Positions 6,042-53,075 of a DNA stretch of 64,000 bases are shown here, in pieces. Positions within the stretch are counted from its first letter, which is position 1, and the number at the start of each line of letters is the position of its first letter. This stretch comes from Chloroherpetonaceae bacterium (GTDB lineage: Bacteria; Bacteroidota; Chlorobiia; Chlorobiales; Thermochlorobacteraceae). The notes below the pieces were generated by a model. That model was not told where the DNA came from and made no database searches. It saw only the letters and a list, made by a program, of their open reading frames with translations. The position numbers and the translations under genes are program-made. The DNA lies in contig JANRJQ010000010.1 in the NCBI GenBank assembly GCA_033763895.1, forward strand, positions 438,146-502,145. The letters are read 5' to 3'.

Positions 6042-9000
6042 TTGAAGCGAGTTTTATTCATCTCTTTTATCCTCTTTTTTGTTGTGTGCGGCGAGGTCGC
6101 CTATACACAAACAATTCAGGAAGGCCAAGAGGTTTCTGGTGCTGTAACTACCTCTGCTCAAAATGATCGTTTTTACTTTTATGACCTCCTATCAAAACAA
6201 AAATTCCTTTCGAGTTTAAGTGCGAGTATTCAAACAATTTCTGAAACTGTAAATAAAAAAGGTTTAGAACCAAAATCATCGTCTTCATATCTAACCGTTG
6301 ATGATTTTATTCTAAATAGAGCGAAACGAAAAAACGAGATTGATAGCCTAATTGAGTTGAATAACCTTACTGTTAATCAACTTGAAAAGTCAAAATCTGA
6401 AATTGAACAAATTTTAACTCTAGAATCTTTAAACTCATCGACTACTGCTAAAAGTAAAAATCTTAAGAAAAGATTAGAGGCAATTGAAAAGCAAGTCTTA
6501 AGTCTCAAGAATCAAGTCGCCGGATTGAAAAGTGAACAAGACAGTTTGTTTTCAGCCACTTCGAATTTCGTACCATTCCAAGAGCGGTATCGAGACCGAT
6601 GGAGAAAGAGGCTAAACAAAGCAGCAGAAACCCCAAAACCACTTCCAGATATTGAACAAGAAGTTAAATCTTTTAGTGAAACTCAGTCGGACTTTAGAGC
6701 AATTACAAATACGGCTCAAAATCGTGGAGTTTCTTTAGAGTCAATTAATTCAGAAGTTTCTACCCTTGAATCCGAAATAGAAGCAAACGCGTCGCTGTCT
6801 CAAGAAATTTTAGCGCTCTTAAGCAGACTAAAAAAAGGTAAGGAATCAGCAGAGCTTGATATTGCAAGACTAAAATTCAAGAGATCCCCTCAATTAGGTA
6901 GAAGAGAAAGTCTGCTTGCAGAAGGTGAAGAGCCATTCCAAAAGCTAATTCGCGACTATGTGAACGACTTTGGAGCCGCTCAAAAAATTAGTACCGCTGA
7001 CTTCGGATATGAAAATGGTCCTAAAGGTTCTTATCATAATTTTCAATCTAAGGAAGATTATGATCGCTTTTTGGAATACGCTAAGTTTTATAATGAAGCA
7101 AACCTTTTAAGGTCGGCAAGAAGAGCGATATTATTCAAAGGATCAACGGATTTGATGTTTGATCTTTTATCGATTGAACTGGCTTCAGCGACGAAAACAT
7201 ACATCGAGGGTGACTTCCTGACTTCAAGACTTCTTTTCTCAGATATTTATAATGAGTACTCCACTGTTTTTGTTGATCGTCCTGATAATGCAGATTCTAC
7301 AGTTTCTCAATCAACAGGACTAAGACTTGATGATGTCTTGTTCTATTTGGCAGAATCAAACTTTGGGGCTCGATTTTACACTGAGGCTAGAAAAAATTAC
7401 GAGCTTTTAATCAATGAGTACCCTGAATCAGAATATGCCTCTAAATCAGTTTATAGAATTCTTTTTACGGACTATGTTCTTGACGAATTTGAAAAATTTG
7501 AACAAGACTTAGATGCATATTTAATAACCCCTTCATTTGTAGAAAACATCAAAGTTTCTAATCAATTCTTAAAGCAAATTAGAAACAGTTTAACAGAGTT
7601 AGAGGCTCAGAAATTTAACCTAGAATATGAACTTTCTTCCCTTTCTACACTAAAAGATGAATTGGTTGAATCATTGGCTGAAAGTCCGTCAAATACCACC
7701 TTTACAAGCCAAATCCAATCTGATATTGATCTTGCAGAAGTTGAAAGTAAGTCTGTTCAAGAGAAAATTACACTTTTAAGGGTAAGAATTGATAGTGTGC
7801 GTAAATATATTGGAAGGCAACGTTCACAATTGAACTCTAGTATCCGAGCGACAGTTCCCGAAAATTATCTAAATGATTATGGAAGAATTTTCTTATTAAC
7901 ATCAATGGCTTTTTATCGTGATAAACAGTATCAAAAAGCTCTTGATTACCTAGATTTGATTTTTGAAGAATCCTCCGTCAGGAAAGAAGCGGAATATGTT
8001 TCAGGCTTAATTTATCTTGCTCTGAACGATAATGATCAAGCAAAGAGATATTTTTTCAGAACGATCGAAAGAGTTGGCGATTTCCCAGAAACAAAGGGAA
8101 AATCAAAAACATATCAAATGTCAGACATCGACGATGCAGTTTTACTGAACTCAACTTATCTTCAACTTGCAAATATCCACTATTCGGTCGGAACAAAGCT
8201 AACTCAGAAAATTGATGACTTGAGTACCCTCAGTGGGGCTTCGCAATTGGTCGCTGATTCCCTCCTTCAATTGCAATTTGTAAGAATGACTCAGGGAAGC
8301 CAATTTATCGAATACCAAAATCAGATTAGAAGAATCTTAAATAGGATTTCAGTTCAAGATACTTTGCTTAAGAATCTAAGTGAGCAAATGGATAAAGAAC
8401 TTCAAGCAAACGCGGAGTCTGAAGGATTCGTATCTGAATACTTGCAAAATCTTAACGAAGCCAATGGTGTAATCGATGAAGAGTCTTCAAAAGTAGAGGA
8501 ATTGTATTCAAACTTACAGGAAAATAAAGATGATGGAAAAGATGTTTCGCGGTCAATCCGGAAAATTAGAGAACTTTTAGAAAGAACACGTGAGAAACTT
8601 GTTAATGCAAAAACAGGTCTTTACAAAAAAATAGCCTCTGCAGAATTTCTTAAGGCAGAAACTTATTTTGGTAAAGTTGCATCCAGATACCAAGACAAAG
8701 ATTTGGCCGAACTCGGCAGAATTTGGTCAACATTTAGAGTTGGAGATTACAAGAGCGCTCAGAAAGATTTAGAAAATTATTTGGTTCGGTACCAAGAGTC
8801 AAATAAGGTTTATCAGGCTTCATTTTTAGCTGGTTATATTAAGCAATCAATTCGACCAAATGACCCTGCGGTCACTCTTCCAGATTATAGTTTTGTTTTT
8901 AATGGGTCATTGGTTTACAAGTACATAGAAAGATTGATGGCTATTAAAACACAACTCCTTCAATCAAGGTCTCAAATGAATTCGGTTTATTTGAATGCTT

Positions 9001-9872
9001 CAACGGTTGAACAAAAACAGTCTCTTGAAAAACTTATTAATGCTGTTGGTATAATAATATCTTCTATAAAAACAGATCCAGTTTCATTTGAAAATAAAAA
9101 CACTTCTTTAATTTCTGTCAATGACCTCTCACAAATAGAAAGTGCTGAAAATGTAATAAGAGCCGAAATCGCCAATCAGCCGAATGGATCGGATCTTTCC
9201 ATTTATGTTAACGATGTTCAAACTTCAGTTCAGAAATTAAAGCAACTCAATGTTGAAACATTTAGAGATACTGATAATTTGTTTCAAATGTATTCCCCAA
9301 TTGCAATGGATGCGCAAAAACATTCATACCAACAATATGGTGATTACTACAAGAAACTCATGAAAACTGAATATGAATCTGCACTTAAGCATTATAAAGA
9401 GGTTCATTCTCAACCAGTAGATAAAGATTCACGCGGCGAATTACTTAGTGCTTACAAAAAAAATATTGCTTCAGTGGTATTAGATAGAAGCATCGTACTA
9501 AATTCGATTTTATTTGAAAGGGAATTCTTTGGTACACAAACTTCTGAACTAGCAGGTACAACTGCTATTTATGCCCTTAGTAGTGTGACTTATAGCGAAA
9601 TTAAACGCCAACAAGAGCAAATGAAGAACTATACTTCAGTTCTTTCAACATTTCGTTCAGCAATCAAAAGAAAACTTAATCAAATGGAAGATTTTGGTGA
9701 GCAGAAACAAATAGAGGAATTACCTGATTTCATTCAAGCAGAATCTCTTTACGAACCCAAGCAAAAAGTATTCGAAGAGATTATTGGGGATTTCAGAAAA
9801 GCATTTTTTATTGGAACCGAGGATCTAAAGTTATCTAAAAAAACAACATCAAAAAAAGTTGAGGTTCCATAA
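6042..9872 (+). CDS. Large secreted TPR / coiled-coil protein, first gene of an ExbB-ExbD-linked envelope locus
   Basis: A 1276-residue protein with a typical signal peptide (KRVLFISFILFFVVCGEVAYTQ), so it is probably periplasmic or attached to the outer membrane. Coiled-coil stretches lie near residues 97-173, 505-597 and 763-867. Between them are TPR-like helical hairpins, for example ARFYTEARKNYELLINEYPES near 450 and YRDKQYQKALDYLDLIF near 625. TPR-like hairpins of this sort occur in YbgF- and BamD-like periplasmic scaffolds. No catalytic motif is seen. The only start codon is TTG at 6042, an in-frame stop lies 15 bases upstream, and there is no clear Shine-Dalgarno. exbB follows after 77 bases. 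Inference: a periplasmic scaffold of the proton-driven complex encoded next to it. I do not recognise a named family. Confidence 0.75.
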   Translation: MKRVLFISFILFFVVCGEVAYTQTIQEGQEVSGAVTTSAQNDRFYFYDLLSKQKFLSSLSASIQTISETVNKKGLEPKSSSSYLTVDDFILNRAKRKNEIDSLIELNNLTVNQLEKSKSEIEQILTLESLNSSTTAKSKNLKKRLEAIEKQVLSLKNQVAGLKSEQDSLFSATSNFVPFQERYRDRWRKRLNKAAETPKPLPDIEQEVKSFSETQSDFRAITNTAQNRGVSLESINSEVSTLESEIEANASLSQEILALLSRLKKGKESAELDIARLKFKRSPQLGRRESLLAEGEEPFQKLIRDYVNDFGAAQKISTADFGYENGPKGSYHNFQSKEDYDRFLEYAKFYNEANLLRSARRAILFKGSTDLMFDLLSIELASATKTYIEGDFLTSRLLFSDIYNEYSTVFVDRPDNADSTVSQSTGLRLDDVLFYLAESNFGARFYTEARKNYELLINEYPESEYASKSVYRILFTDYVLDEFEKFEQDLDAYLITPSFVENIKVSNQFLKQIRNSLTELEAQKFNLEYELSSLSTLKDELVESLAESPSNTTFTSQIQSDIDLAEVESKSVQEKITLLRVRIDSVRKYIGRQRSQLNSSIRATVPENYLNDYGRIFLLTSMAFYRDKQYQKALDYLDLIFEESSVRKEAEYVSGLIYLALNDNDQAKRYFFRTIERVGDFPETKGKSKTYQMSDIDDAVLLNSTYLQLANIHYSVGTKLTQKIDDLSTLSGASQLVADSLLQLQFVRMTQGSQFIEYQNQIRRILNRISVQDTLLKNLSEQMDKELQANAESEGFVSEYLQNLNEANGVIDEESSKVEELYSNLQENKDDGKDVSRSIRKIRELLERTREKLVNAKTGLYKKIASAEFLKAETYFGKVASRYQDKDLAELGRIWSTFRVGDYKSAQKDLENYLVRYQESNKVYQASFLAGYIKQSIRPNDPAVTLPDYSFVFNGSLVYKYIERLMAIKTQLLQSRSQMNSVYLNASTVEQKQSLEKLINAVGIIISSIKTDPVSFENKNTSLISVNDLSQIESAENVIRAEIANQPNGSDLSIYVNDVQTSVQKLKQLNVETFRDTDNLFQMYSPIAMDAQKHSYQQYGDYYKKLMKTEYESALKHYKEVHSQPVDKDSRGELLSAYKKNIASVVLDRSIVLNSILFEREFFGTQTSELAGTTAIYALSSVTYSEIKRQQEQMKNYTSVLSTFRSAIKRKLNQMEDFGEQKQIEELPDFIQAESLYEPKQKVFEEIIGDFRKAFFIGTEDLKLSKKTTSKKVEVP

Positions 9873-9949
9873 AGATAAGTTAATTTTTTATTAGTTTCAT
9901 TTCTATATCTTTTCAACGACTAACAGTCTATCAATCAATTGGAGGAAAA

Positions 9950-10729
9950 ATGGCAAAGAAGAATAAACTCTTTCTCTGGGCTTCAATCTTTGTATCATCA
10001 TTAATCGCACTTATCTTGTTTTACGGAGTATTTCCGTCTATGCCAAAAGGCAGCCCGATGGAATTACTTACGCACGGCGGTCCGCTTGTTGCCGTTCTTC
10101 TCGCTAACTTGTTCGTATTGTTTACCGTGTTGGTCGAAAGAATCATTGCTTACAATAAGTCTAAAGGAAAAGGTAAGTTAGATGAGCTCTTAAAAGAGTT
10201 GAAGAAAGACCTTGAAAGAGGTGCAATCAACGAAGCAATTCAAAAGTGTGAAGTACATAACAGTTCAATCTCTTCATCACTTCAAAGTGGTTTAGAGCGC
10301 TACCGATCATTAGATGAAGTAGAACCTCGATTCAATGCAAAAATTCAAGAAGTTCAAAAGGCAATTGACGAAGCAGCTAACTTTGAGTCGGCTCAATTCG
10401 AGACAAATCTTACACCGATTAAAACAATTGCCACAATTACAACACTAATCGGATTGCTTGGAACGACGGTAGGAATGATTAAGGCATTTGCTTCTCTTGC
10501 AGAAAGCGGTGGAACGCCCGATCCTTCGAAACTTTCTGGTTCAATCTCTGAAGCACTTTATAACACAGCCTTCGGTCTCGTTGGTGCTATTTTCGGTACA
10601 GTTGCATACAACTATTTCAAAGCGGAAATTGACAGCTTTACCTATTTTATTGATGAGGCTGCGTTTGAAGTTATACAAACGTTGACTATTTCTCGTAGAA
10701 ACCTTATCTCAGAAAGAGATAGAAGCTAA
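9950..10729 (+). CDS. MotA/TolQ/ExbB proton channel family protein
   Basis: A 259-residue inner-membrane protein. Transmembrane segments lie near residues 8-26, 42-66, 155-175 (TITTLIGLLGTTVGMIKAF, the conserved TolQ/ExbB block) and 195-220 (SEALYNTAFGLVGAIFGTVA). The cytoplasmic loop after the second segment is long and charged. Family members form pentameric channels around ExbD/TolR dimers and convert the proton motive force into movement of a periplasmic partner (TonB, TolA, or the Myxococcus AglR system). A strong GGAGG Shine-Dalgarno at 9941-9945 precedes the ATG, stronger than in most genes of this window. The two exbD-like genes follow directly, after a stem-loop. Confidence 0.93.
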   Translation: MAKKNKLFLWASIFVSSLIALILFYGVFPSMPKGSPMELLTHGGPLVAVLLANLFVLFTVLVERIIAYNKSKGKGKLDELLKELKKDLERGAINEAIQKCEVHNSSISSSLQSGLERYRSLDEVEPRFNAKIQEVQKAIDEAANFESAQFETNLTPIKTIATITTLIGLLGTTVGMIKAFASLAESGGTPDPSKLSGSISEALYNTAFGLVGAIFGTVAYNYFKAEIDSFTYFIDEAAFEVIQTLTISRRNLISERDRS

Positions 10730-10741
10730 TTGTGAAAATAA

Positions 10742-10773
10742 GGGCTTGTAATATATAAAAATGTTACAAGCCT
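10742..10773 (+). other. Intra-operon stem-loop between exbB-like and first exbD-like gene
   Basis: A 10-bp stem (GGGCTTGTAA / TTACAAGCCT, one G-T pair) with a 12-base AT-rich loop lies in the 72-base gap. No T-run follows, so it is more likely an mRNA stability or processing element than a terminator. Confidence 0.5.
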
Positions 10774-10801
10774 ACTTCCAAAATAGAAACTATAGGAATC
10801 A

Positions 10802-11314
10802 ATGAACTTCTTCGGCTTTTTTATGCACGGGGGAGATGATGCAATCGACTTAGCACCGCTTGTTGACATCGCATTTCTTCTCTTGACCTTTTTTATGATG
10901 ACCACGGTTTTTAATGCTAATGAAGAGCTAAAACCTGAACTTCCGGAATCTTCTGGTAAAGAAAAAGAACCGGGTTCAAATTACATCAGCGTTGTACTTG
11001 TCGATAGTACTAAAGGAGACCGTATCATTGTTAATATGGATGATTCTCAAGTACGTGTTGATGCTATGCAAGGGCGGCTTTCAAGAAATGAAGCACTAAA
11101 AACGACTGGGTTTGAAATCAAAAATCTTAAACAAGACCCTGAACTTAAAGATTTATATGAAGTTCTACTTAGAGCTAGACAGGCAAAATCAACTCAAGTT
11201 GTAGTCTTAAAAGCAGATAAGAACTGTAAATATGAATCAATAAATAAGGTTCTTTTAACTATGAAAAAAGTGAGATTTGACAAAGTCAAGTTAATCACCG
11301 TAATGGAAAAATAA
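10802..11314 (+). CDS. Biopolymer transporter ExbD/TolR family protein (first copy)
   Basis: A 170-residue protein with a short cytoplasmic N-terminus and one transmembrane helix. The helix carries the proton-coupling aspartate at D22 in LAPLVDIAFLLLTFFMMTT. A periplasmic domain of about 130 residues follows. It pairs with the ExbB-like channel just upstream. The next gene is a second, different ExbD homologue 12 bases away, so the stator probably contains an ExbD heterodimer, as with AglQ and AglS in Myxococcus or the paired ExbDs of Bacteroidota tonB loci. Confidence 0.92.
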   Translation: MNFFGFFMHGGDDAIDLAPLVDIAFLLLTFFMMTTVFNANEELKPELPESSGKEKEPGSNYISVVLVDSTKGDRIIVNMDDSQVRVDAMQGRLSRNEALKTTGFEIKNLKQDPELKDLYEVLLRARQAKSTQVVVLKADKNCKYESINKVLLTMKKVRFDKVKLITVMEK

Positions 11315-11326
11315 TATTTAGAAACA

Positions 11327-11923
11327 ATGGCTCATTCAATCGAAGAAAAAGGTAGAGAAGTAAAACATCATATGCGTGATGGCAAGACAAATGCCCAAGC
11401 GCGTAAGATAAAAAAGTACAACGAAAAAAGTGACGAATCATCGCATGTAGACTTGGCGCCAATGGTAGATATTGCTTTTTTATTGTTGACTTTTTTTATG
11501 ATGACGACTTCATTTTCAAAACCTAATGTATTCCAAATTGGATTACCAGAAGACAGTAAAGGCGGCGGTAAGGGTGTTGAGGTGAATCAACTATATGTTT
11601 TAACTATTCAGATTTCAAAAAGCGGTAATATTTACATGCACCGTGGAATTGAAGGTGAGCAAAATAAGCCTGTTTTAGTTCCCTTTGATCAAATAGAAAA
11701 ACAAGCACGCTCTTATCGTAAGAGTGTTTTGGATGATCCACTAAATTCCACAAAATCTGACATTGTAACAGTTGTAAAAATAGATCCTCAATCGATCTAC
11801 GGTGTTATGATAGCTTCCTTAGATGAAATTTACAATGCTGGAATTACGAAATGGGCGACTGTGGAGTTAAAACCTGAAGAAAGTGCAAAACTTGAAGAGT
11901 ACGATAAATCTGCAAATAAATAA
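11327..11923 (+). CDS. Biopolymer transporter ExbD/TolR family protein (second copy)
   Basis: A 198-residue ExbD/TolR homologue with a longer, basic, 40-residue cytoplasmic N-terminus. The transmembrane helix carries D48 in VDLAPMVDIAFLLLTFFMMTT. This helix is almost identical to that of the preceding gene, but the periplasmic domains differ clearly, so the copies are old duplicates with separate roles rather than a recent repeat. The gap to the next gene (TonB-like) is 24 bases and holds an AGGAGA Shine-Dalgarno. The protein is probably half of a heterodimeric stator element. Confidence 0.92.
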   Translation: MAHSIEEKGREVKHHMRDGKTNAQARKIKKYNEKSDESSHVDLAPMVDIAFLLLTFFMMTTSFSKPNVFQIGLPEDSKGGGKGVEVNQLYVLTIQISKSGNIYMHRGIEGEQNKPVLVPFDQIEKQARSYRKSVLDDPLNSTKSDIVTVVKIDPQSIYGVMIASLDEIYNAGITKWATVELKPEESAKLEEYDKSANK

Positions 11924-11947
11924 GAATTTCATTAAATAGGAGATAAA

Positions 11948-12946
11948 ATGAAGCGAACGGCTGAACTCAGCGGACAATCTACGATGAGGTGGTATGCAGA
12001 AAAACCTTTTGCATACAAAGTCAGAGAGACATATCAGAGAAGAATGATATTTGGCTTAGGAGCAACGATACTTCTTCTGTTAGTTTCAATTCTTTCTTAT
12101 TTTGTTTCTATCTATATCACTGATGCAGATTCACTTGCATTTAAGGAACGAAAAAGAGTAGAAATAAATGTTGAAGCGGTACCGCCACCGCCGCCGCAAG
12201 AAGTGCAAAAACAAGAAATCCAACAAGCAGATGCTGTAGCAGGCGAATCTGCGGCTGAAAACGCTACTGTAAGTGAAGAACAGTCGCAACAAATCGCTTC
12301 TGGAACAGAACAAGCAGTCTCCTCAGCATTAAGTGAAGCAATGGCTGGTTTATTTTCTGAGGGTGGTGGATTACCAACCCCATCGGCAACTGCAGTTGGA
12401 ACAGGAGAAGGCGCTCTTGCTTCAGTAGGCGGTGCATCACTAAGAACTCCGGGAGGAACAGGATTTGGTACTGGTGTTCAAGGTTTGGGTGGTTCCGGTG
12501 ACGTCGGTTTTGGAGGTTCAGGCGCAGGAGTAATTGGAGGTCCGGGGAAAACTGGCGGATTAGGTGGAGGTCTTGGTGGTGGTTTAGGCATTGGCGCCAA
12601 AAAGGGGGCTCTTGCCATTAGTGCAAACTTCAAAAAAATGACTGTTAGTACAGGTGGAAGAAGCCAAGCCGATATAGAAAAAGTAATTCAAAGTGAACGG
12701 TCGGCCGTAGATGATTGCTACAGAACAGCAAGAGCAAGTTCAACAGAAAGCATTCGAGGTGAAATGACCCTAAGCATTTTTATAAGACCTGACGGAGGAG
12801 TAGCAAATGTTGTTGTTGTGAAATCATCAATTAAAAGCCAACTTTTAGAAAGGTGCTTACAACAGAAAATTAGACGCTTTAGATTCACAGCAGCCGGATC
12901 AAATGTTCAGAAAGTTGATGTTCCGTACTCATTTACTGAAGATTAA
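11948..12946 (+). CDS. TonB/GltG-like energy-transducing protein with AgmX/PglI-type C-terminal domain
   Basis: A 332-residue protein laid out like TonB: a cytoplasmic N-terminus of ~34 residues, one transmembrane helix (about 35-57), a short Pro patch (VPPPPPQ near 78-84), a Gln/Ala/Glu-rich stretch, a Gly-rich linker (about 138-220), and a folded domain from ~235. That domain matches the AgmX/PglI carboxy-terminal type known from Myxococcus gliding proteins: DDCYRTA with C257, GEMTLSIFIRPDGGV, LERCLQQKI with C303, then RFRFTAAG and VPYSFTED. The two cysteines could form a disulfide. Standard Bacteroidota TonB C-termini lack this Cys pair. It is inferred to carry force from the ExbB-ExbD stator across the periplasm, with the adjacent giant protein as candidate partner. 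Confidence 0.85.
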   Translation: MKRTAELSGQSTMRWYAEKPFAYKVRETYQRRMIFGLGATILLLLVSILSYFVSIYITDADSLAFKERKRVEINVEAVPPPPPQEVQKQEIQQADAVAGESAAENATVSEEQSQQIASGTEQAVSSALSEAMAGLFSEGGGLPTPSATAVGTGEGALASVGGASLRTPGGTGFGTGVQGLGGSGDVGFGGSGAGVIGGPGKTGGLGGGLGGGLGIGAKKGALAISANFKKMTVSTGGRSQADIEKVIQSERSAVDDCYRTARASSTESIRGEMTLSIFIRPDGGVANVVVVKSSIKSQLLERCLQQKIRRFRFTAAGSNVQKVDVPYSFTED

Positions 12947-12971
12947 ACAATTTTTTAATAGAAATAAAACA

Positions 12972-13008
12972 TGCTAAACTTATCATTCCTCAAGTGATAA
13001 GTTTAGCA
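12972..13008 (+). other. Perfect 14-bp stem-loop before the giant gene
   Basis: TGCTAAACTTATCA pairs without mismatch to TGATAAGTTTAGCA across a nine-base loop. It sits in the 114-base gap between the TonB-like gene and the 2696-residue gene. No T-run follows directly, although a T-rich stretch starts about 20 bases later. It may be a weak terminator, an RNase processing site or a protein-binding operator, any of which could set the giant protein's level apart from the upstream genes. Confidence 0.6.
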
Positions 13009-13060
13009 ATTGTATTGTAACTACAACCCCTTTTTCTTCTTGTAAGAATCTTAATTTATT

Positions 13061-16000
13061 ATGAGGAAATATTCTAAAGTTTTTCTGCTTCTCGTTGGAA
13101 TAGTATCATTGAGCCATTACGAGCTTGTAGCAAAAAACAGCCCAGAAGACAGCGTTCAGGTGAACAATCAAGAACAAAAAAGGGCCTTGAATATGTCACG
13201 TCTTCTTCCAAAATCTCCCCTTAAGGTTGTTACTGGTGATGAAGAAACGGACAATATATTTAATAACTATTCAATTTCTCAAATTCAAATAATTGTTGAT
13301 GAATATGAGAAAAAATATGAAAAAGCTAAAGAGCAAAAGAGAATCCTAACAGAAACAAGTCTTGAACTAGGCGAGAAATTTATAAAAGTATTTCAAGATA
13401 GTAAGGTAATTGATGAAGTGGCGATGCGATATGCAGATTTACTTTATGACAAACTCAGTGAGGAATATTACGCAAAAAGAGCAATTTATGATCAAGAACT
13501 TGTTAGGTTTCTTCAATCCAACGAATTTAAAGAATACCAAAAAAAGGTAGAAGCTTTTTATCAAGATACATCAGGAACTGGAACTCCTCCACAAAAACCA
13601 AAAGGCCCAGAAGCACCAGACCCAAAATTAGATAGAATCATAAATATCTATGATAAAATTATCAATGACCTTCCTGAGAGCCCCTATGTTGCAGATGCTC
13701 TTTACGGAAAGGCATTCATATTAGGTGAAAGATATGCGGACTATTTGCCTCTATTAGAACAAAAATATAATGGAGATGACCGAAAAGCGATAAAAGAGGT
13801 TGAAGACAAAAAAAATGAGTCAATGACTCTTTTGCAACAACTTTCACGTCGTTATCCTGATAGCAGATATACAGTCGATGCCTATATGCTCATTGGAGAG
13901 TATTTGTTTGGGTCAAAGAAAAATCAACCTCGAAAAACACGTGAAGCTATTCCATATTATAAAAAAGCTTTAGAATTAATTAGCAAGAGAGGACAGCGTT
14001 CTGATTATTATTATCAAGCTGTATATAAGTTGGCTTGGTGTTATTACCGTTTAGGAGTTGAAGAACCAAATGAATACAGAGAAGCTGTGATTTATTTAAC
14101 TCAACTTATTGATGATATAGAGAAAGCTGAAGAAGTTTATTTAGGTAAGGTAATGCCTCCGTATGTCCGCCCTGATATGAAAAACGAGGCAATGGACATT
14201 ATGGTAACTTGTTTTCTTCAATTACAGAGAATTGATAATCAATCAACAAGTCGAACCATTGGGAGTGACTCTACCGGTGTTGAAAGACTTGATCGATATT
14301 TTGGTTCTTCAAAAGTTCCAAGAAGATATGCACCACTTATTTACGAAAAGCTTGCAGAACAATACACGGAATTAAAAGAGAATCCCTTAAAAATCAACTC
14401 GATTTACTTTGCCCTGTTAAAAAGATATCCAAAGTATGAGAGAGCCCCAAGAATAGCTCAAAGAGTAATCGATCAATATAAATTAATTACTGAAAACGGC
14501 GAACTTCAAGGAGAAGCAAAAGATAAAGGGCTAGAAATTCTCTATGAGCAAAGAAATAATCTATTTTATGTTTATGGAAGAAATAGTGAGTGGTTTCAGA
14601 ACATGAAACGCAGAATTGATGCTCAGAAAAAGGGAAGACTACTTTCTTTTGAAGATCAAAGCGTATTCACTTCTGGATTTGATATTTCTGTGCTTGCCTT
14701 TACGGACAGTATCAGTAAAGAAGCTCTGTTTCAAAATATTCTTTATTCAAGCAGCCGTGCTCAAGTACTTGAAGAAGGCCGTGAAGCTACAGAGTATTCT
14801 GAAGCAATTAGAAAAGATACAATCAAATCTAAAGTATTATACCAAAAAACCGTAGATGATATTGAGCAATATGCGAAATTATTTTCAAGATATGATTCAA
14901 TTTCATATTACACGCAATTTCAACGTGCAATCATTTTAGAAGACAAACTTGGCAAGATTGATGATGCTCTAAAAGCATACATGAGTATAGCTAGAAATTT
15001 TGCTTGGGATGAAATGCCTTATCCATTGAGGGAAGACAGTTTAATTTCATATAGAAAATATGCAATTGGCAGAGCATATGAAATAACGAATTCAATATGT
15101 GAAGCAAAGAAAATAGGATTTTCAGATCCTACAATTGACACTGCTACTCGGGCTTCAAATCTACCACCATTAGAAATATTGCCCGAAGAACAAAAATTTA
15201 TAGATGTTGTTGATAACTATATCAGGTTGTATCCTCACGATACAGTTTCTGCATTTGCAATTTTCAAGTTAGCAAATTTTTATAGAGCAAAAGGATATAA
15301 CGATAAGTACAAAGAAGTGAATTCACGATTGGTTTTATATTATCCGATACAACCAATTTATCCAAGTACAATCGTTCCTTTAATGTACGCCGCTTACGAA
15401 TCGGGAGACTTCAGTAGAAGCGAACAATTAGCTAAAGCTCTTTATTATGGTCCAAAGTCAGGAACAAAACAAGATTCTCTAATAAGAAGAGAGGGTTATC
15501 GTTATGTAGGCTCTTCTATCAATGAAAGAGCTAAATTATATGAATCTAAAAAAAATTATTTCGCGGCAGCAAAAGAATACGAAAGAGCAGCTTTAAGTGT
15601 ACCCGATTGGGAGTATGTTGACGAAGCCCTAATGAAAGCAGCTGAAACATATGATTCTGCTAAGGCAACAAATGATGCAGTAAGACTCTACAATTATTTG
15701 ATTAAGAATGCAAAATTCAAGAAGAACGTTGTTAGAGGTTACTCTGGAATTGTCAATTCATACAAATTAGCAAGTCAATATGATAGTGTGACATCTTCGC
15801 TTGAAAGAATAAGTGATGTTTACTCTTTACCAGAAGCTGACACAATTGGATTATATCAAGTTTATAAAGTTAAAAAAGATGGAGAATCATTTGCAGAAAA
15901 TGCTTTATTCCAGTCATTAAAAACAAGTGAATTAGTAAGTGAAAAAACTAATAATTGGAATAACTCTATAAGATTATCAGATAAATTTTTAGCAAGGTAT

Positions 16001-19000
16001 CCCAATTCTCCAAACGCATCTAAAATTGCCTTTAATAAAATTGAGCAATTTAGAAAATCTGGAAATATGAAGGGTGTAGAGGAAGCATATGGACAATTTG
16101 CTGATAATTATCCCGATGACCCACTAGGGGTTTATGCATATTTCAGAAGAGGTGAAATGCGCGAAAAGGAATTGGATACAACTGGAGCAAAAACAGAATT
16201 TGGAAAAGTTATTGCACGACAAGCTGAACTTAAGCAAAAGAAAAAGGATAACGGTTCTACTCAGATTTATTCAGCTGAGAGTATTTATAAGCTCAAAAAT
16301 TATCAACTTTCTTCATTTTTACAAGCCCCTATCAAGATGATTATTCTTGACAAAGCGTTTGAAGAAATTAAAATTAGTGATGAGCCTAGCCAATCTTCAA
16401 AGACTGTTGCTTCAACAAAGAAAACACGCCAACAAATTAAGCAAGATTCAATTGCAAAATTAAAGAGAGATACAATTAGGGCTATTCGCTATGACTCACA
16501 AGCAAAGGACTCAAAAAAGAAATTCTTAGACTCTTTAATATTTGCTTTAGCAGGTTCAAATACTTACCGTTCAATTGATGCTTTTTATTCAGATGCTTAC
16601 TTAAACGAAGAAGTAGCCTTGCAATATGAAAAACTACCTGATACATTAAAAAAAGCTAAAAATAGAGAGGGAAAACAAATTCCTGCCGGTGTAGCAAAAG
16701 CTGGGGTTGAAGCTTTGGCAAATGATGATGCAGCAAATTTTTTTGGTAATGCGGGTGTGTCCTACATCACCACAATAAAAAAGATGTTAGCATTTAGAGA
16801 TGACTTTTTGAAAAATCCTACCCCTGATTCTGCAAAGGAATTTTCAAAAGAATTATATTCTATTCTAAATCAAAAAGCCACCGGAATTGATTTGACAAAT
16901 ACAGACTCGATTAACTCAAAGCTACTCACACTAAAGCCTTTAGTTGACCGGTGGATTTCAGAAGAAGGTAAAAGTCCGCCTGATAGTGTTTTTCTCGCAA
17001 GTATCGAAGGAAGCCTTGTAAAGGCTAGAAGAAAAGTCAGCGAAATGTATTTCAAAGCTGCAAAACTCAAAGAAAAAAATGCTTACTTATTTTTGGATAT
17101 ACCTGTTCCAATTGATATAAAAAATAAAGTATTACGAAGGACTGTTGGAAAAGGTAGAACAAAAAGCACTATTGATTTATTTATTGGGGATGTTTTAGAA
17201 TTAACTGTACTCTCAAGATTTGCGAAGGAATATGTACAGCCTTACGCTGAATCGGCAATTAACACCTACAAACTAGGCGTTTCAAGGACTAAAGAAAAAG
17301 GTCTCGGGTTAGATCAAAATAGTGAATACATCAAAGATTCGGAAAAAGCTATAATAAGATTGGCTTCATTGAGTGTAGAAAGAGTTGACTCAATTGCGCG
17401 ATTAGCGTTAGGCTTGTTTGATAACTTAGATAGAGAGTATAGAAATAGATTAGATAGTATTAAAAACCAAACAGCAGGAGATACTCGCTTTTTATCATTA
17501 AGATCTGCTAAAATGCAACAGGTCATTACAGTGTTTAATGCTTTGGTTAATGACGCACTAGGTCAATATTCTAAAGCTTTTCAATTACTAAGAGAGTCAA
17601 ACTCTGCTGATACTTTAAGAATCGCAAATAAAGCATCTAAATTTGTTTACGAACTTGGAGAACTTAGTTTGCACCGTTCGGATTCATTAATTCAAAGGGT
17701 AAAAAGATATAATGAAATTGCAAATTACTTTGATCCTCAAACAGGTGAAAATAAATATTGGTATGGAGAGGCCGCTTTACAATACCAACCTGTAGCAAAT
17801 TTGTATAAATCTGTAGCACAGCTTATTCTTCAGAACTCAGTAATATTAATTGACGAATATCAAATTCAAAATGAATATACCCAAAAGTCTTTAGAACTTT
17901 TAGTAGAAAGTGATCGAGTTAAGTATTTGAGACTCTTAGGTACTGAATCAATTCAAGAATTACTGGATGTTTCACCTACCGGTTGGACTTATTCAACTTC
18001 AATTCCTGAAGAAGATACTTATGAATGGTTTAAAAACACCTATCCCAAATCAAATAATTGGCAACCAGCAACAGTCAACGAAGAAGTAAAAAAACTTCAA
18101 ATAATAGAGACAAAAAAATCTGGAAATGATACTTTAACATCATATAAAGATATAGATGTTGCTGCAATTTGGTTTACCGCAAGAAAAGTATCATATGCTC
18201 CACCTAGGTTTGCAGTAAAAGGTGATGTTTTCAATATAAGAATGAAGTTTAATAATGCAGGTGATTCTATTTTATCAGGAAGGTCAACTCTTGATAGCGT
18301 TGCGTCAGTTATTGCAAATAAACCTGATTATTTGGTAGAGTATAAAGCTGGTAATTTTGAGATACCAACAACACAGCAAAAAAATTACGACAAAATTCTA
18401 AAACAAAGAGAAACATTAATAACGAAAATTTTTCTAAACGCAGGTGTTAAAACAAATCAATTCAAATTAGTCCCTACGGGTAGTGAAAGATTTACATCGT
18501 TAAGATTAATTAAAGCTGAACCTGTTTCGTATGAAAATTTTGTAAATGAGGGAGACATAAAAGTAACTTTCATTGAATTTGCAAATACAGAAATTAATGT
18601 TGCAGAGGGAATGCAAGAGATTGATAGTCTTGCGGCCAAATTAGTTCGCTCACCGGAGTATATCATTGAATTAACAGTAAGTAACAAGTTACCAAAATTA
18701 GACAAGAAGACAGGAAAAACATTAAGGACGCAAACTGTTAAAGAAAGAGAATCTGAATTAAAGCAACAGTTAGTACTTAAGGGTGCGAACCCAAATCAAA
18801 TTCTTGTTTCAGGAAATGCAGGTTCCGAGGAGACTAAAGTGAAGCTAATTAGGTTCAGAATTCCACCGCCTGTTTCCTACGAGGATGTTACCGCGATTGG
18901 CGATGAAAGAGTGCTTGATAAAGTTAAGTTTTCATACAACGAAAAGGCGTTTAAGTCGTCAATAACCGGCGGTCAAGTTTTACTTGATAGTTTAGTTGCA

Positions 19001-21151
19001 AAGCTTTTAAGGGAAAAGGGTCTACAAATAGAAATGACTGTCTCCAATGAAGAAATTCCGAGTCGTGCAATTACCTCAGGTATAAAACAACGGGAAAGTG
19101 AAGTTAAGAAGTATTTTGTTACAAAGGGTGTCGCAGACAAGCAAATGACATTTACCGGAGATAAAAAAAGCACTGTAACTAAGTTTAAGGTAGTTAAGTT
19201 TGAAAAAATCATAGAAACAAAAACTGAATCTAAGAAAGAGTTTAAATCAGAAGTACCTAAAGACTCAGTAAGTGTATCTGCAAGAACTTTTGACGGTCTT
19301 TTTACAACAATTGGAACTCAAGTCCAATTAAGTATTCAATTTGTTAAGGATACCGAGGTAATCAGTTCACAAAATGTAGAATTGGATAGTTTATCATCTT
19401 ATCTAAACCGACACTCAGATGAGGTGGTTGAAATAACTACATCTAACTTTGGTATAAATAAAAAAGGTGCCGCACTGAAAAGGATATCTGATTTACGAAA
19501 CAAATCCGTTAAAGAGTTTCTTATCAGCAAAGGTGTAAAAAATGAGCAGATTCGGTTTGCAAAAACCAGTAATAATAACGCTACGGCAAAATTAGTAGAA
19601 AAATTGAATAAACCAGTGGTAATGGTTGATTCGGCTAAGTCTAATCCAACCGACTCGGTCAAATCGAAAACCATTGAAACTCCAAAAGAGATTAGAAGTT
19701 TCAGAGGATCTTTAAGGGATAATCAATCATATGTGAAAATTTTCGTTGCCTTCGGTAAAGATAAATCGGAGTTAATAACTAAAGATTCTGAACTAGATAG
19801 TTTAATCGTTGAAATAAAGGATAGAACAGGTTATACTTTTGAGGTGCAGCCTTCGAATCAACAATTAACTAAAAAAGGTGCACAAGCAAAGAGGATTACT
19901 GATGCTAGAGCACTTTCTGTGGTTAAGTATTTGTCATCAAATGGAATACCTCAAAAACAACTTATAATAAATAAAACTGCAACTGATTCTGTTACGATAA
20001 AGGTTATCAAAGTTCCGGAAGTCGCAAAAATTGATACACAAAAGACAGTTGGCACCACAATTGGTGACAGTTCAAGTACAACTCTGTTAACTCAAAAAGT
20101 ACCTAATGACTCTGTTCAAAGTGTTCAAGAATCGGTAACCCCTGTAAGAAGTTTTGAGGGAATGTTGACCAAGAAAAATGAAATAGAATTTATTGGTGGA
20201 TTATTATTTGATAAAGATAAATCAACGATAAAAGCTGGTAAAACTATCATAGATAGTTTAGGTAGCTACTTAGCAAGAAATCCTTTACTCGTTGTTGAGA
20301 TTACTATAAGCAACAAAGAAATTTCAAAGAAGGGGGCAGCGGCAAAAAAAATCATTGATGAAAGGGCAAAAACATTAACCTTACAACTTAAATCTATTGG
20401 GGTTGATTTGAAGAATGTTAAAATTAGTAAAAAAAGCGCTCCAGAAGGATCGGTTAAAGTTCTAGAGGTTAAATCATCAACGCCTTTAATACCAATTGAG
20501 ACCTCAAAACCTGACTCAATAAAATCAGACACATTAAAGTCAGATTCAACATCAAAAGGAAGAACACAAGGTTACAGAAAGTTCAATAAGAAATTCGAAA
20601 GAACTTATGCTATGGTAGTCTTGAATACGAGAGAATTCCTTCAATCAGGTACAAACTCAGATTCTATCCCACCATTTGTGTATTTTAAGAAAAAGTTTGT
20701 ATTCAATGGAGCCATTAAAGATGCTCAGCTTGTAATTTCGAAAGATATTCCGTTTGATGAAGATTCTACTGAAATATACATAAATGGTCGTTTGCTCAAT
20801 AGAGGTTCAAAAATTGTGTACATTGGAGGAGGAGTTTCACCTCAAGATAAGGGTGATCAAGTAATACTTGATTCAACCTACTTAAAGAACACCTCTGAAA
20901 ATCAAGCAATTTATGATGTGAAGAATGATATATTGCCGGGCGAAAATTATATTTCATTGCGGGTACCGGGCTATATACCATCAGAAGGGATAAAACTGGG
21001 AATTTATGTAACTTACTACGGTAAGGTAACGGATGAACAATTAAAAAAGCTATTAAAAGTAGTTCTTGAAGAAAGAAAGAAAGCTAATGAAAAGCTTAAA
21101 GAAGCTGAGTTGGAGCAAATCAGAAGTCAGCAAAATGTGAATCCAAATTAA
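13061..21151 (+). CDS. Giant secreted TPR protein with six tandem degenerate OmpA-like modules
   Basis: A 2696-residue protein with a signal sequence (KVFLLLVGIVSLSHYELVA). Residues ~190-1030 are TPR-like hairpins such as EAIPYYKKALELI and KNYFAAAKEYERAAL; ~1030-1700 are mostly helical. Residues ~1717-2472 hold six OmpA-like modules, each with a Ld-S-L helix, a strand ending in x-S-N (A-G-N in the first), and an R(A/E)xxV-like helix followed by a G-V/I turn. The last module reads LFDKDKSTIK and IIDERAKTL, close to real OmpA. The Asp that binds diaminopimelate is Asn in all six (N1765, N1875, N1996, N2129, N2266, N2418); the Arg is kept in all six (R1783, R1896, R2011, R2146, R2283, R2435). 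Residues ~2511-2660 form a beta domain (LPGENYISLRVPGY), then a charged helix. It is inferred to be a periplasmic or outer-membrane scaffold; I know no exact match. Confidence 0.8.
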   Translation: MRKYSKVFLLLVGIVSLSHYELVAKNSPEDSVQVNNQEQKRALNMSRLLPKSPLKVVTGDEETDNIFNNYSISQIQIIVDEYEKKYEKAKEQKRILTETSLELGEKFIKVFQDSKVIDEVAMRYADLLYDKLSEEYYAKRAIYDQELVRFLQSNEFKEYQKKVEAFYQDTSGTGTPPQKPKGPEAPDPKLDRIINIYDKIINDLPESPYVADALYGKAFILGERYADYLPLLEQKYNGDDRKAIKEVEDKKNESMTLLQQLSRRYPDSRYTVDAYMLIGEYLFGSKKNQPRKTREAIPYYKKALELISKRGQRSDYYYQAVYKLAWCYYRLGVEEPNEYREAVIYLTQLIDDIEKAEEVYLGKVMPPYVRPDMKNEAMDIMVTCFLQLQRIDNQSTSRTIGSDSTGVERLDRYFGSSKVPRRYAPLIYEKLAEQYTELKENPLKINSIYFALLKRYPKYERAPRIAQRVIDQYKLITENGELQGEAKDKGLEILYEQRNNLFYVYGRNSEWFQNMKRRIDAQKKGRLLSFEDQSVFTSGFDISVLAFTDSISKEALFQNILYSSSRAQVLEEGREATEYSEAIRKDTIKSKVLYQKTVDDIEQYAKLFSRYDSISYYTQFQRAIILEDKLGKIDDALKAYMSIARNFAWDEMPYPLREDSLISYRKYAIGRAYEITNSICEAKKIGFSDPTIDTATRASNLPPLEILPEEQKFIDVVDNYIRLYPHDTVSAFAIFKLANFYRAKGYNDKYKEVNSRLVLYYPIQPIYPSTIVPLMYAAYESGDFSRSEQLAKALYYGPKSGTKQDSLIRREGYRYVGSSINERAKLYESKKNYFAAAKEYERAALSVPDWEYVDEALMKAAETYDSAKATNDAVRLYNYLIKNAKFKKNVVRGYSGIVNSYKLASQYDSVTSSLERISDVYSLPEADTIGLYQVYKVKKDGESFAENALFQSLKTSELVSEKTNNWNNSIRLSDKFLARYPNSPNASKIAFNKIEQFRKSGNMKGVEEAYGQFADNYPDDPLGVYAYFRRGEMREKELDTTGAKTEFGKVIARQAELKQKKKDNGSTQIYSAESIYKLKNYQLSSFLQAPIKMIILDKAFEEIKISDEPSQSSKTVASTKKTRQQIKQDSIAKLKRDTIRAIRYDSQAKDSKKKFLDSLIFALAGSNTYRSIDAFYSDAYLNEEVALQYEKLPDTLKKAKNREGKQIPAGVAKAGVEALANDDAANFFGNAGVSYITTIKKMLAFRDDFLKNPTPDSAKEFSKELYSILNQKATGIDLTNTDSINSKLLTLKPLVDRWISEEGKSPPDSVFLASIEGSLVKARRKVSEMYFKAAKLKEKNAYLFLDIPVPIDIKNKVLRRTVGKGRTKSTIDLFIGDVLELTVLSRFAKEYVQPYAESAINTYKLGVSRTKEKGLGLDQNSEYIKDSEKAIIRLASLSVERVDSIARLALGLFDNLDREYRNRLDSIKNQTAGDTRFLSLRSAKMQQVITVFNALVNDALGQYSKAFQLLRESNSADTLRIANKASKFVYELGELSLHRSDSLIQRVKRYNEIANYFDPQTGENKYWYGEAALQYQPVANLYKSVAQLILQNSVILIDEYQIQNEYTQKSLELLVESDRVKYLRLLGTESIQELLDVSPTGWTYSTSIPEEDTYEWFKNTYPKSNNWQPATVNEEVKKLQIIETKKSGNDTLTSYKDIDVAAIWFTARKVSYAPPRFAVKGDVFNIRMKFNNAGDSILSGRSTLDSVASVIANKPDYLVEYKAGNFEIPTTQQKNYDKILKQRETLITKIFLNAGVKTNQFKLVPTGSERFTSLRLIKAEPVSYENFVNEGDIKVTFIEFANTEINVAEGMQEIDSLAAKLVRSPEYIIELTVSNKLPKLDKKTGKTLRTQTVKERESELKQQLVLKGANPNQILVSGNAGSEETKVKLIRFRIPPPVSYEDVTAIGDERVLDKVKFSYNEKAFKSSITGGQVLLDSLVAKLLREKGLQIEMTVSNEEIPSRAITSGIKQRESEVKKYFVTKGVADKQMTFTGDKKSTVTKFKVVKFEKIIETKTESKKEFKSEVPKDSVSVSARTFDGLFTTIGTQVQLSIQFVKDTEVISSQNVELDSLSSYLNRHSDEVVEITTSNFGINKKGAALKRISDLRNKSVKEFLISKGVKNEQIRFAKTSNNNATAKLVEKLNKPVVMVDSAKSNPTDSVKSKTIETPKEIRSFRGSLRDNQSYVKIFVAFGKDKSELITKDSELDSLIVEIKDRTGYTFEVQPSNQQLTKKGAQAKRITDARALSVVKYLSSNGIPQKQLIINKTATDSVTIKVIKVPEVAKIDTQKTVGTTIGDSSSTTLLTQKVPNDSVQSVQESVTPVRSFEGMLTKKNEIEFIGGLLFDKDKSTIKAGKTIIDSLGSYLARNPLLVVEITISNKEISKKGAAAKKIIDERAKTLTLQLKSIGVDLKNVKISKKSAPEGSVKVLEVKSSTPLIPIETSKPDSIKSDTLKSDSTSKGRTQGYRKFNKKFERTYAMVVLNTREFLQSGTNSDSIPPFVYFKKKFVFNGAIKDAQLVISKDIPFDEDSTEIYINGRLLNRGSKIVYIGGGVSPQDKGDQVILDSTYLKNTSENQAIYDVKNDILPGENYISLRVPGYIPSEGIKLGIYVTYYGKVTDEQLKKLLKVVLEERKKANEKLKEAELEQIRSQQNVNPN

Positions 21152-21152
21152 A

Positions 21153-21509
21153 ATGCGCACAATTATGCTTAAAATATTTCTAATGCTGCTATGTTTTTTC
21201 ACCACGGTCTCAATTTCTGCTCAAACTAAGACGGAAAAAAAGGGGAAAACAACGGTTAAAGTAGAAAAAAAAGCGGGTGAGAACAAAGATGTTACCTTAA
21301 AAGCGATTGAAATCAAGATTACTGTACCAGTTCCTAGGATCAAATTTGTAATGGAAAGGGTTCAACTTGAAGCAAATGTAGATCACAAGAGATTTGGTGA
21401 TATTTCTTATGAAATCAATGAACAGGGTAGAAAAATTATGCACAGTAATAAAATTACCGACCGACCAGTGAGAATTTCTAATCGAACATTAACCTCAATT
21501 AGCCGGTAA
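21153..21509 (+). CDS. Small secreted protein of unknown function, last gene of the envelope locus
   Basis: A 118-residue protein with a signal peptide (MLKIFLMLLCFFTTVSISAQ), a Lys-rich linker (KTEKKGKTTVKVEKKAGE), and a C-terminal ~60-residue basic domain (KITVPVPRIKFVMERVQLEANVDHKRFGD is the start of it, read in parts). It begins one base after the stop of the giant gene and is thus translationally coupled to it. The start may be MRT at 21153 or MLK at 21165. I do not recognise a family. Its position suggests a small periplasmic subunit or chaperone of the same complex. A hairpin terminator follows. Confidence 0.7.
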   Translation: MRTIMLKIFLMLLCFFTTVSISAQTKTEKKGKTTVKVEKKAGENKDVTLKAIEIKITVPVPRIKFVMERVQLEANVDHKRFGDISYEINEQGRKIMHSNKITDRPVRISNRTLTSISR

Positions 21510-51806: not shown

Positions 51807-51923
51807 CAATTCATCAAATTCTTAACTTTTTTCTGCCAATATCGTTGGGTGAAGTTTATCCCAAGAATCAACATTTTTCAATCTACTTGCGGATATCACT
51901 TCAAACTTCACTCATTCGGCTCG

Positions 51924-53075
51924 ATGGGCTTTGAAAAAAAATTTATAAGCATTTACGCTTGTTTTGTTTTTGGTCTCATTCTTCTCACCCAGATAGGATT
52001 TTCTCAAGAAAGCCCGGAAACTGTTGCGAAATCTTCCAGCGATACCTCTTCAATGATGCCAATGCCGGTCAAGCTTGATAATGGCATTGTCATTCCGATT
52101 GTCTTTACTTCACCAGAAACCCGAATTGGCGGCGGTGTGGTTGGCGTGTATTACTATCGATTTAATGGAGAACCAGTCGAATCCCGACCTTCAAATGTTA
52201 AGGGAGACATCATTTTCACTCAACAGAGGCAAATATTCATTCAACTCATCCCTCAATTTTACTTTGGAAATGAGGAAAATTTTTTTGACACCGAATTTTC
52301 GTTTATCCGTTTTACAGATCGTTTTTGGGGAATTGGGAGCCAAACGCCGGTAGTAAATGAAGAGCAATATGCCAACGATATTATTCGATTACGCATTGGG
52401 TATTATCGAAGGCTGAAGCAAGCAGTCAACTTTGGATTAATTTATCATTTTGAAAATTTTACCATTCGTGAACGAAAAGTAGGAGGATTGTTAGAACAAG
52501 GTGGATTATTCATTGGAAACAATGGTGCAAGGGTATCCGGCTTAGGGTTAGCTTTTAACTATGATTCAAGAAATAATCTTTTTTCCCCTTCAGAAGGAGT
52601 TTTTACGCAATTAACAACCACGCTTTATCTCGACTTATTGGGAAGCCAAACAAATTTTTACACTTTTGTTATAGACGCTCGCAAGTATTTTTCCGTAATA
52701 GATCATCATGTAATTGCTCTGCAAGGGTATTTCAGTGGAGCTGAGGGAGATGCTCCTTTTCAATTATTGCCAAGATTAGGGGGTAACGCAAGAATGCGTG
52801 GATTTTTTGAAGGAAGATTTCGAGATAAGCTATTTCTTGCGGCTCAAGCAGAGTATCGCTTTCCGCTTGTTTGGCGATTTGGTGGTGTTGTTTTTGGCGG
52901 TATCGGTGAAGTGGCTTCGCGAATCCAACAATTTTGGCTGCCGAATTTTCAAATCAGTTACGGCTTTGGTTTGCGCTTTTCGATTAATCCTGATGAAAAG
53001 GTTAATCTTCGTTTAGACTTTGGTTTTGGGAAGAACACAAGCGGCATTTATTTAACCGTCAACGAAGCTTTTTAG
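51924..53075 (+). CDS. BamA/surface-antigen-like outer-membrane beta-barrel protein
   Basis: A 383-residue protein started at the ATG at 51924, which gives a clean signal peptide (KKFISIYACFVFGLILLTQIGFSQ); the frame extends to a GTG at 51849. Alternating beta-strands fill the rest. The region GLGLAFNYDSRNNLFSPSEGVFTQL with GGNARMRGFFEGRFRDKLFLAAQAEYRFPL is the Omp85-type barrel pattern (bacterial surface antigen, D15). No POTRA domains are seen, so it is a barrel-only member and not BamA itself. It precedes the DUF5686 gene by 19 bases. Confidence 0.82.
   Translation: MGFEKKFISIYACFVFGLILLTQIGFSQESPETVAKSSSDTSSMMPMPVKLDNGIVIPIVFTSPETRIGGGVVGVYYYRFNGEPVESRPSNVKGDIIFTQQRQIFIQLIPQFYFGNEENFFDTEFSFIRFTDRFWGIGSQTPVVNEEQYANDIIRLRIGYYRRLKQAVNFGLIYHFENFTIRERKVGGLLEQGGLFIGNNGARVSGLGLAFNYDSRNNLFSPSEGVFTQLTTTLYLDLLGSQTNFYTFVIDARKYFSVIDHHVIALQGYFSGAEGDAPFQLLPRLGGNARMRGFFEGRFRDKLFLAAQAEYRFPLVWRFGGVVFGGIGEVASRIQQFWLPNFQISYGFGLRFSINPDEKVNLRLDFGFGKNTSGIYLTVNEAF

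Follow-up and report, generated by a model that had tools for sequence, protein, structure and literature searches.

A cluster of seven genes in a 64-kb stretch (hereafter the window) of a 3.55-Mb Thermochlorobacteraceae (Chlorobiales) genome very probably encodes a dedicated, conserved proton-driven envelope machine of the ExbB/ExbD/TonB type, separate from the nutrient TonB system and tied to exported tetratricopeptide repeat (TPR) proteins. Its proton-driven nature follows from the ExbB/ExbD family. We favor gliding as the main function of the cluster, at somewhat short of an even chance, because the cluster is present in a known glider, absent from the non-motile sister family and accompanied by Mgl-type control genes, while the other engines searched for are missing.

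All seven open reading frames (ORFs) lie on the + strand between 6042 and 21509. They are separated by gaps of only 77, 72, 12, 24, 114 and 1 bp, a tight spacing that points to an operon-like arrangement. An earlier note on this DNA had described seven same-strand genes with named parts; with very high confidence this observation is correct, as all seven ORFs are found and their Pfam and NCBIfam domains agree. Domains of the window proteins were assigned with these two profile collections, transmembrane (TM) and signal segments from hydropathy. The features are the following.

6042..9872, + strand: TPR1, exported TPR/coiled-coil protein, 1276 aa, TTG start; TPR_6 and BamD/YbgF-type TPR matches
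9950..10729, + strand: ExbB/TolQ-type proton-channel subunit, 259 aa; PF01618 (5.1e-28), three TM peaks
10802..11314, + strand: ExbD1, 170 aa, one TM, membrane Asp22; PF02472 (4.3e-21)
11327..11923, + strand: ExbD2, 198 aa, one TM, membrane Asp48; PF02472 (1.6e-17)
11948..12946, + strand: TonB-like transducer, 332 aa; cytoplasmic N-tail, one TM (37-55), Pro/Gly-rich spacer, AgmX/PglI C-terminal domain
12662..12934, + strand: AgmX/PglI C-terminal domain with Cys pair, transducer residues 239-329
13061..21151, + strand: giant exported protein, 2696 aa; signal-type N-terminus
13214..16360, + strand: TPR region of the giant, ~residues 52-1100; TPR_6 and YbgF/BamD-type matches
17963..18178, + strand: first half of a split galactose-binding-like jelly roll of the giant, ~residues 1635-1706; from alignment and AlphaFold/Foldseek of the L053 ortholog
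18236..20455, + strand: variable insert of the giant with six OmpA-like repeats, ~residues 1726-2465; PF00691 (6.4e-8)
20666..21046, + strand: second half of the jelly roll, ~residues 2536-2662; conserved block after the insert
21153..21509, + strand: small secreted protein, 118 aa, no family match; signal-type N-terminus by hydropathy

The membrane Asp that carries protons is retained in both ExbDs (D22, D48). TPR1 begins with a hydrophobic segment at residues 4-22, which is signal-type by hydropathy.

The same set of parts recurs in relatives of the window genome. In all genomes read from the Thermochlorobacteraceae (f1) and Chloroherpetonaceae (f2), the order TPR1-ExbB-ExbD-ExbD-TonB-giant-small is identical. 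Gene calls are disturbed in a few metagenome-assembled genomes (MAGs) of these families: an ORF filter that discards any ORF overlapping a longer one left ExbD1 of L041 and the ExbDs of L042 uncalled, and the small gene is frame-interrupted in the Candidatus (Ca.) Thermochlorobacter MAG (L053). Across both families TPR1 has orthologs at the equivalent place, the cluster ExbB retains 68-75% identity, and the small secreted protein directly follows the giant. A third family (f44) has a truncated copy that runs from TPR1 through the start of the giant (contig G279:C413). In a distant class of the same phylum (f4, four genomes) the order is permuted to TPR1-giant-small-like-ExbB-ExbD-ExbD-TonB; here TPR1 has a remote ortholog, and the giant, present in 4/4 genomes, is followed by a ~105-108-aa look-alike of the small secreted protein. 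Being kept together in two families, truncated in a third and permuted in another class, the component set goes beyond chance. The genes thus stay together in relatives, a point the earlier note had raised, with the giants conserved beside the motor. A scan with the ExbB alignment matched only Ca. Thermochlorobacter aerophilum, other Thermochlorobacteraceae, Chloroherpetonaceae and Chlorobiales MAGs, and a scan of named genomes with the window's giant as query gave no match.

The genomic site is shared as well. Both the f1/f2-type and the f4 arrangements come after dnaE-trxA-trxB. Other genes lie upstream of the cluster in the window genome, suggesting that this copy moved or was rearranged. 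The complete Chlorobiaceae genome G052 has kept dnaE-trxA-trxB, followed by rhodanese-like and TusA/DsrC-like genes that resemble those of sulfur metabolism, named by eye (L262, G052:C1:1160001-1180000). The simplest reading is that the cluster locus is ancestral and was lost or displaced in Chlorobiaceae.

Profile scores set the transducer apart from nutrient TonB. Its tail reaches 62.1 bits with NF033768 (AgmX/PglI; cut-off 40 bits) and 30.4 bits with tonB_Cterm, while Pfam TonB_C matches at 3e-6. The TonB-like protein with an AgmX/PglI-type end described in the earlier note is therefore closer to AgmX than to TonB. In contrast, the genome's own canonical TonB (contig C4) scores 58.8 bits with tonB_Cterm and has no NF033768 match, which gives a clean contrast inside one genome. 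The canonical ExbB-ExbD-ExbD-TonB set is present elsewhere in the genome, separate from the cluster. The cluster's AgmX domain retains its Cys pair in f1, f2 and f4; canonical TonB does not have it. An AlphaFold model of the domain (pLDDT 89.5) has TonB C-terminal domains as its nearest PDB folds (Foldseek best E 2e-3), and as predicted from model and profiles the tail belongs to a distinct subfamily of TonB-fold domains. With the Glt models the transducer scores 42.6 bits (GltG) and 34.7 bits (GltJ), in its C-terminal part only and below both cut-offs (650 and 450), and Pfam detects no FHA domain in it. As a counterpart of GltG/GltJ, which the earlier note had proposed, it stands with respect to the TM segment and the AgmX/PglI tail and falls short with respect to the FHA domain and the model scores. 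A second, stand-alone AgmX-tailed transducer with full-length resemblance to that of the cluster was seen in f1 and f44 (L051:18665-19672, on G000:C14; L177:3226-4284; L154:7268-8248). It has no adjoining motor genes and recalls the GltG/GltJ pair.

Phylogeny points to an origin of the motor within the phylum. In trees built without Myxococcus AglR, AglQ and AglS sequences (IQ-TREE for ExbB), 11 cluster ExbBs form one clade (100/100), sister to the ExbBs of canonical Chlorobiales TonB systems (97/96) and inside the TonB ExbBs of the phylum (100/97). ExbD2 nests with the second ExbDs of the phylum's TonB cassettes (100*), and ExbD1 is less resolved. The expectation that ExbB and ExbD would stand apart from TonB systems in a tree is contradicted by the grouping of ExbB and ExbD2. 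The f4 cluster ExbB is placed elsewhere, and a single clade for both cluster types is rejected (approximately unbiased test, p 0.008), a result to be read with caution given the long branches. This separate placement suggests that homologous TPR/giant cores are apparently coupled to two motor lineages. TonB cassettes in the phylum usually have one ExbB and two ExbDs, so kinship with AglRQS cannot be read from the count of motor genes. One TolQ-like and two TolR-like subunits are indeed present, as in the AglR/AglQ/AglS set invoked in the earlier note, but we dropped this count as a diagnostic of Agl-Glt since canonical TonB cassettes are alike.

The distribution of the cluster follows what is known of gliding in the order. 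Chloroherpeton thalassium was described in 1984 as a flexing, gliding green sulfur bacterium; we found no paper that names its gliding machinery. It glides and the Chlorobiaceae are non-motile (PMC9318685). The cluster-bearing Chloroherpetonaceae genome G005 is probably C. thalassium, being assigned to it as the family's sole cultured species (PMC9318685). The idea that gliding species carry these genes is borne out to this extent: the glider (probable identity) has them and the non-motile Chlorobiaceae do not. AgmX proteins occur in 12/12 non-Chlorobiaceae Chlorobiales versus 0/86 Chlorobiaceae; the relatedness of the genomes speaks against gauging significance from these counts, and a naive Fisher test on them was discarded. 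Among 248 sampled genomes of the phylum, AgmX proteins at E <= 1e-9 are confined to f1, f2, f4 and f16, the last being, like f14, another family of the phylum. All cluster-bearing genomes examined, f4 included, also encode an AgmX-tailed protein that resembles an outer-membrane barrel by sequence pattern. In G000 it lies at L050:14161-15576 (G000:C10, ~656 kb), and in f4 it adjoins an MCE/MlaD-like gene. VIT-VWA proteins with an AgmX-type tail, possible adhesin-like partners, were noted in Chloroherpetonaceae and f16 (L145:8308-10821, L147:7977-10445, L148:4820-7162).

Candidate control genes show the same distribution. Tandem MglB-like Roadblock/LC7 genes (L191:6042-6962; L192, L193, L197, L195, L196, L201) were found in every one of 11 cluster-bearing genomes and in none of 8 that lack the cluster. 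The larger protein has MglB as its best match at 67-71 bits, below the 200-bit cut-off. In G005, G087, G279, G133 and f4 the pair adjoins a receptor resembling methyl-accepting chemotaxis proteins (by Pfam in G005 and G001, by N-terminal similarity elsewhere), and the f4 neighborhood includes CheA-type kinases of up to 1891 aa. G005 and f4 also have MglA-like GTPases; the occurrence of MglA groups 1 and 5 in Chlorobi was known from an earlier survey (PMC4316618). Searches for other engines were largely negative. No GldL exceeded the cut-off in Chlorobiales or f4, with the control ringing at 1e-75 in f14; no GldM was found in the Chlorobiales searched, in a search run without a positive control; and no PilT was found in f1, f2 and f44, while f4 has weaker PilT-family matches. 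Each f1, f2 and f44 genome has two MotA/ExbB matches, which in f1 and f2 are the canonical TonB one and the cluster one. Both being ExbB-type, there is no MotA in these two families.

Several points weigh against gliding. The presence/absence pattern may amount to roughly one evolutionary event, the loss in Chlorobiaceae, and a single contrast with a family that differs in much else carries small statistical weight. A gliding phenotype is on record for C. thalassium only, and not for f4 or most f1 species; gliding of Ca. Thermochlorobacter is merely 'considered' (PMC9318685), and G005 is identified as C. thalassium by inference, not by name. The cluster contains no adhesin gene, and the machine could be equally suited to secretion or envelope integrity.

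The giant protein combines a conserved frame with a variable interior. Its orthologs in four other f1 and two f2 genomes share 37-45% identity, and remote f4 orthologs 25-31%. Conservation is high to ~residue 1690, collapses at 1700-2520 and recovers at 2521-2696. The TPR region is the best-conserved part and is common to f4. In the alignment, the conserved pieces flanking the insert look like two halves of a galactose-binding-like jelly roll. The model of the giant's C-terminus from L053 (Ca. Thermochlorobacter) is moderate (pLDDT 67.5, pTM 0.45) and matches GH2/rhamnosidase jelly rolls (Foldseek E ~7e-4) and a BON domain, so the jelly-roll assignment rests on the alignment pattern together with this Foldseek value. 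The insert of the window's giant holds six OmpA-like repeats, which were absent from the earlier note's description; each has Asn at the usual Pal-type Asp and retains the Arg. Among the giants scanned, these repeats occur in that of the window genome only, and the inserts of relatives are Pro-rich or BON-bearing. As the repeats are confined to the variable insert of one giant, OmpA-type anchoring is not a conserved feature. With repeats that are neither conserved nor equipped with the binding Asp, the giant was ruled out as a Pal-like tether. Separate proteins, at least one of them a likely lipoprotein, resemble the middle helical region of the giant (~residues 1320-1590; L175:1-912, G000:C14:210480-210899, G133:C30, G125:C11).

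With Agl-Glt the cluster shares one TolQ-like and two TolR-like subunits, a one-TM AgmX/PglI-tailed transducer and large TPR proteins, and its genomes also have MglB-like, in some cases MglA-like, and chemosensory genes; for Agl-Glt it has been proposed that a TonB-C-type transducer reaches outer-membrane partners through the peptidoglycan (PMC5349195). True homology, through transfer from Myxococcota or by shared descent, would account for the AgmX/PglI tails and the Mgl-type regulators, yet we consider it very improbable. The motor appears to derive from the phylum's own TonB cassette, the transducer lacks the FHA domain of GltG, and Luciano et al. reported no conservation of Agl-Glt in Bacteroidetes (PMC3169522). 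The large TPR protein, which the earlier note had likened to GltI, is not its counterpart either: the giant and its orthologs have a signal-type N-terminus and a jelly-roll end, whereas GltI has no signal peptide (PMC3169522). As far as can be tested from sequence, then, the cluster should not be counted as a member of Agl-Glt: it has neither an FHA-bearing GltG nor a GltI-type giant, and its motor comes from a different source. A plain TonB energiser serving one set of TonB-dependent receptors, as in multi-TonB Bacteroidota, was the main alternative in the earlier note. Gene order, the two ExbDs, the TonB-type phylogeny of ExbB and ExbD2, and the TonB-like fold of the AgmX domain all fit such a role. 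However, the tail with its Cys pair is AgmX-type rather than tonB_Cterm, the cluster has no receptor gene, the motor is always accompanied by a small secreted protein and two exported TPR proteins, and the genome has a separate canonical set. We consider this reading improbable. The nearest published design relative is the group of TPR-tolQ-tolR-tolR-vWA clusters, for which a gliding role was suggested as possible (Mol Biol Evol 2025, PMC12204202). These likewise combine a TPR gene, one TolQ, two different TolRs and a tethered transducer, which ends in vWA there and in AgmX here.

Two further explanations are each unlikely in our estimate. The cluster might be the missing motor of type IX-like secretion, replacing GldL/GldM (PorL/PorM) and passing force via TPR proteins to SprA, with or without gliding. 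GldLM of Flavobacterium is the power source for SprA-dependent secretion as well as gliding (PMC8986121), and in Porphyromonas gingivalis the TPR protein PorW joins the PorK/N ring to Sov (PMC8754138). The window itself holds a near-full-length SprA/Sov (57495-63998, - strand, 5' end beyond the window; TIGR04189, 1262 bits, cut-off 200), although 36 kb away and outside the cluster. This translocon is present while no GldL or GldM was found in any Chlorobiales searched, and provisionally no SprA was seen in the 1.46 Mb covered, 65% of a Chlorobiaceae genome without the cluster. SprA without detectable GldLM thus offers a second reading that partly overlaps with gliding; very divergent GldLM may exist, and the cluster motor is of the ExbB/ExbD family. 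Beside SprA, a DUF5686/CarboxypepD_reg outer-membrane protein (53095-55500) adjoins a short Omp85-family barrel (51849-53075). Alternatively, the cluster could take the place of Tol-Pal in anchoring the outer membrane and constricting it during division, its TPRs being CpoB-like and its OmpA repeats Pal-like. Both systems have a proton-motive-force-driven TolQR-type motor, the cluster TPRs match YbgF/BamD models, and we retain this option since Tol-Pal and the cluster are mutually exclusive among the Chlorobiales examined. The Chlorobiaceae, themselves without the cluster, have a complete Tol-Pal (tolQRA-tolB-pal-cpoB), whereas no cluster-bearing genome has a full TolB and f1 and f2 have only two ExbB-type motors; TolB matches in cluster-bearing genomes were judged to be generic propellers. 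Against a Tol-Pal substitute, f14 and f16 have no full TolB and yet no cluster, and the cluster has an AgmX-type tail, no TolB and no conserved Pal-type domain, the OmpA repeats being as described above.

Building on the observed gene content, synteny, domain types, tree placement and co-distribution, we propose the following stoichiometry, contacts, force direction and function for a gliding machine. ExbB, presumably a pentamer, and the two ExbDs would admit protons and drive the TonB-like transducer, whose AgmX-type tip would cross the peptidoglycan and pull or push a periplasmic/outer-membrane assembly. This assembly would comprise the two exported TPR proteins (TPR1 and the jelly-roll giant) and the small secreted protein, probably together with the AgmX-ended outer-membrane barrel encoded elsewhere. 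Gliding and flexing on surfaces would be the most likely use of this force, and the MglB/MglA-like and chemosensory module would control reversals or polarity. The motor may have arisen via duplication of the phylum's own TonB cassette, and its Agl-Glt-like working would then be convergent. Of the force-generating, Agl-Glt-like trans-envelope machine postulated in the earlier note, the proton drive, the AgmX transducer, the conserved giants and a distribution that follows gliding are upheld, and Mgl-type control genes co-occur with the cluster; kinship with Agl-Glt is not upheld. A broader scenario, which we consider doubtful as a whole, is that a TonB-cassette duplicate independently turned Agl-Glt-like and powers SprA-dependent secretion as well as gliding without GldLM, with an ancestral TPR/jelly-roll core and a swap of motors between the two classes.

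If the cluster drives movement, gliding engines would have arisen repeatedly from ExbBD/TonB-type motors and large TPR scaffolds, and the AgmX tail would mark such machines outside Myxococcota. Motor replacement would be clearly exemplified by the other class, where a homologous scaffold is paired with a different motor lineage. In f1 and f2 genomes, in which no GldL or PilT was found, the motor-type proton channels are those of nutrient TonB and of the cluster only. The cluster is the best candidate yet for the gliding of these relatives of green sulfur bacteria.

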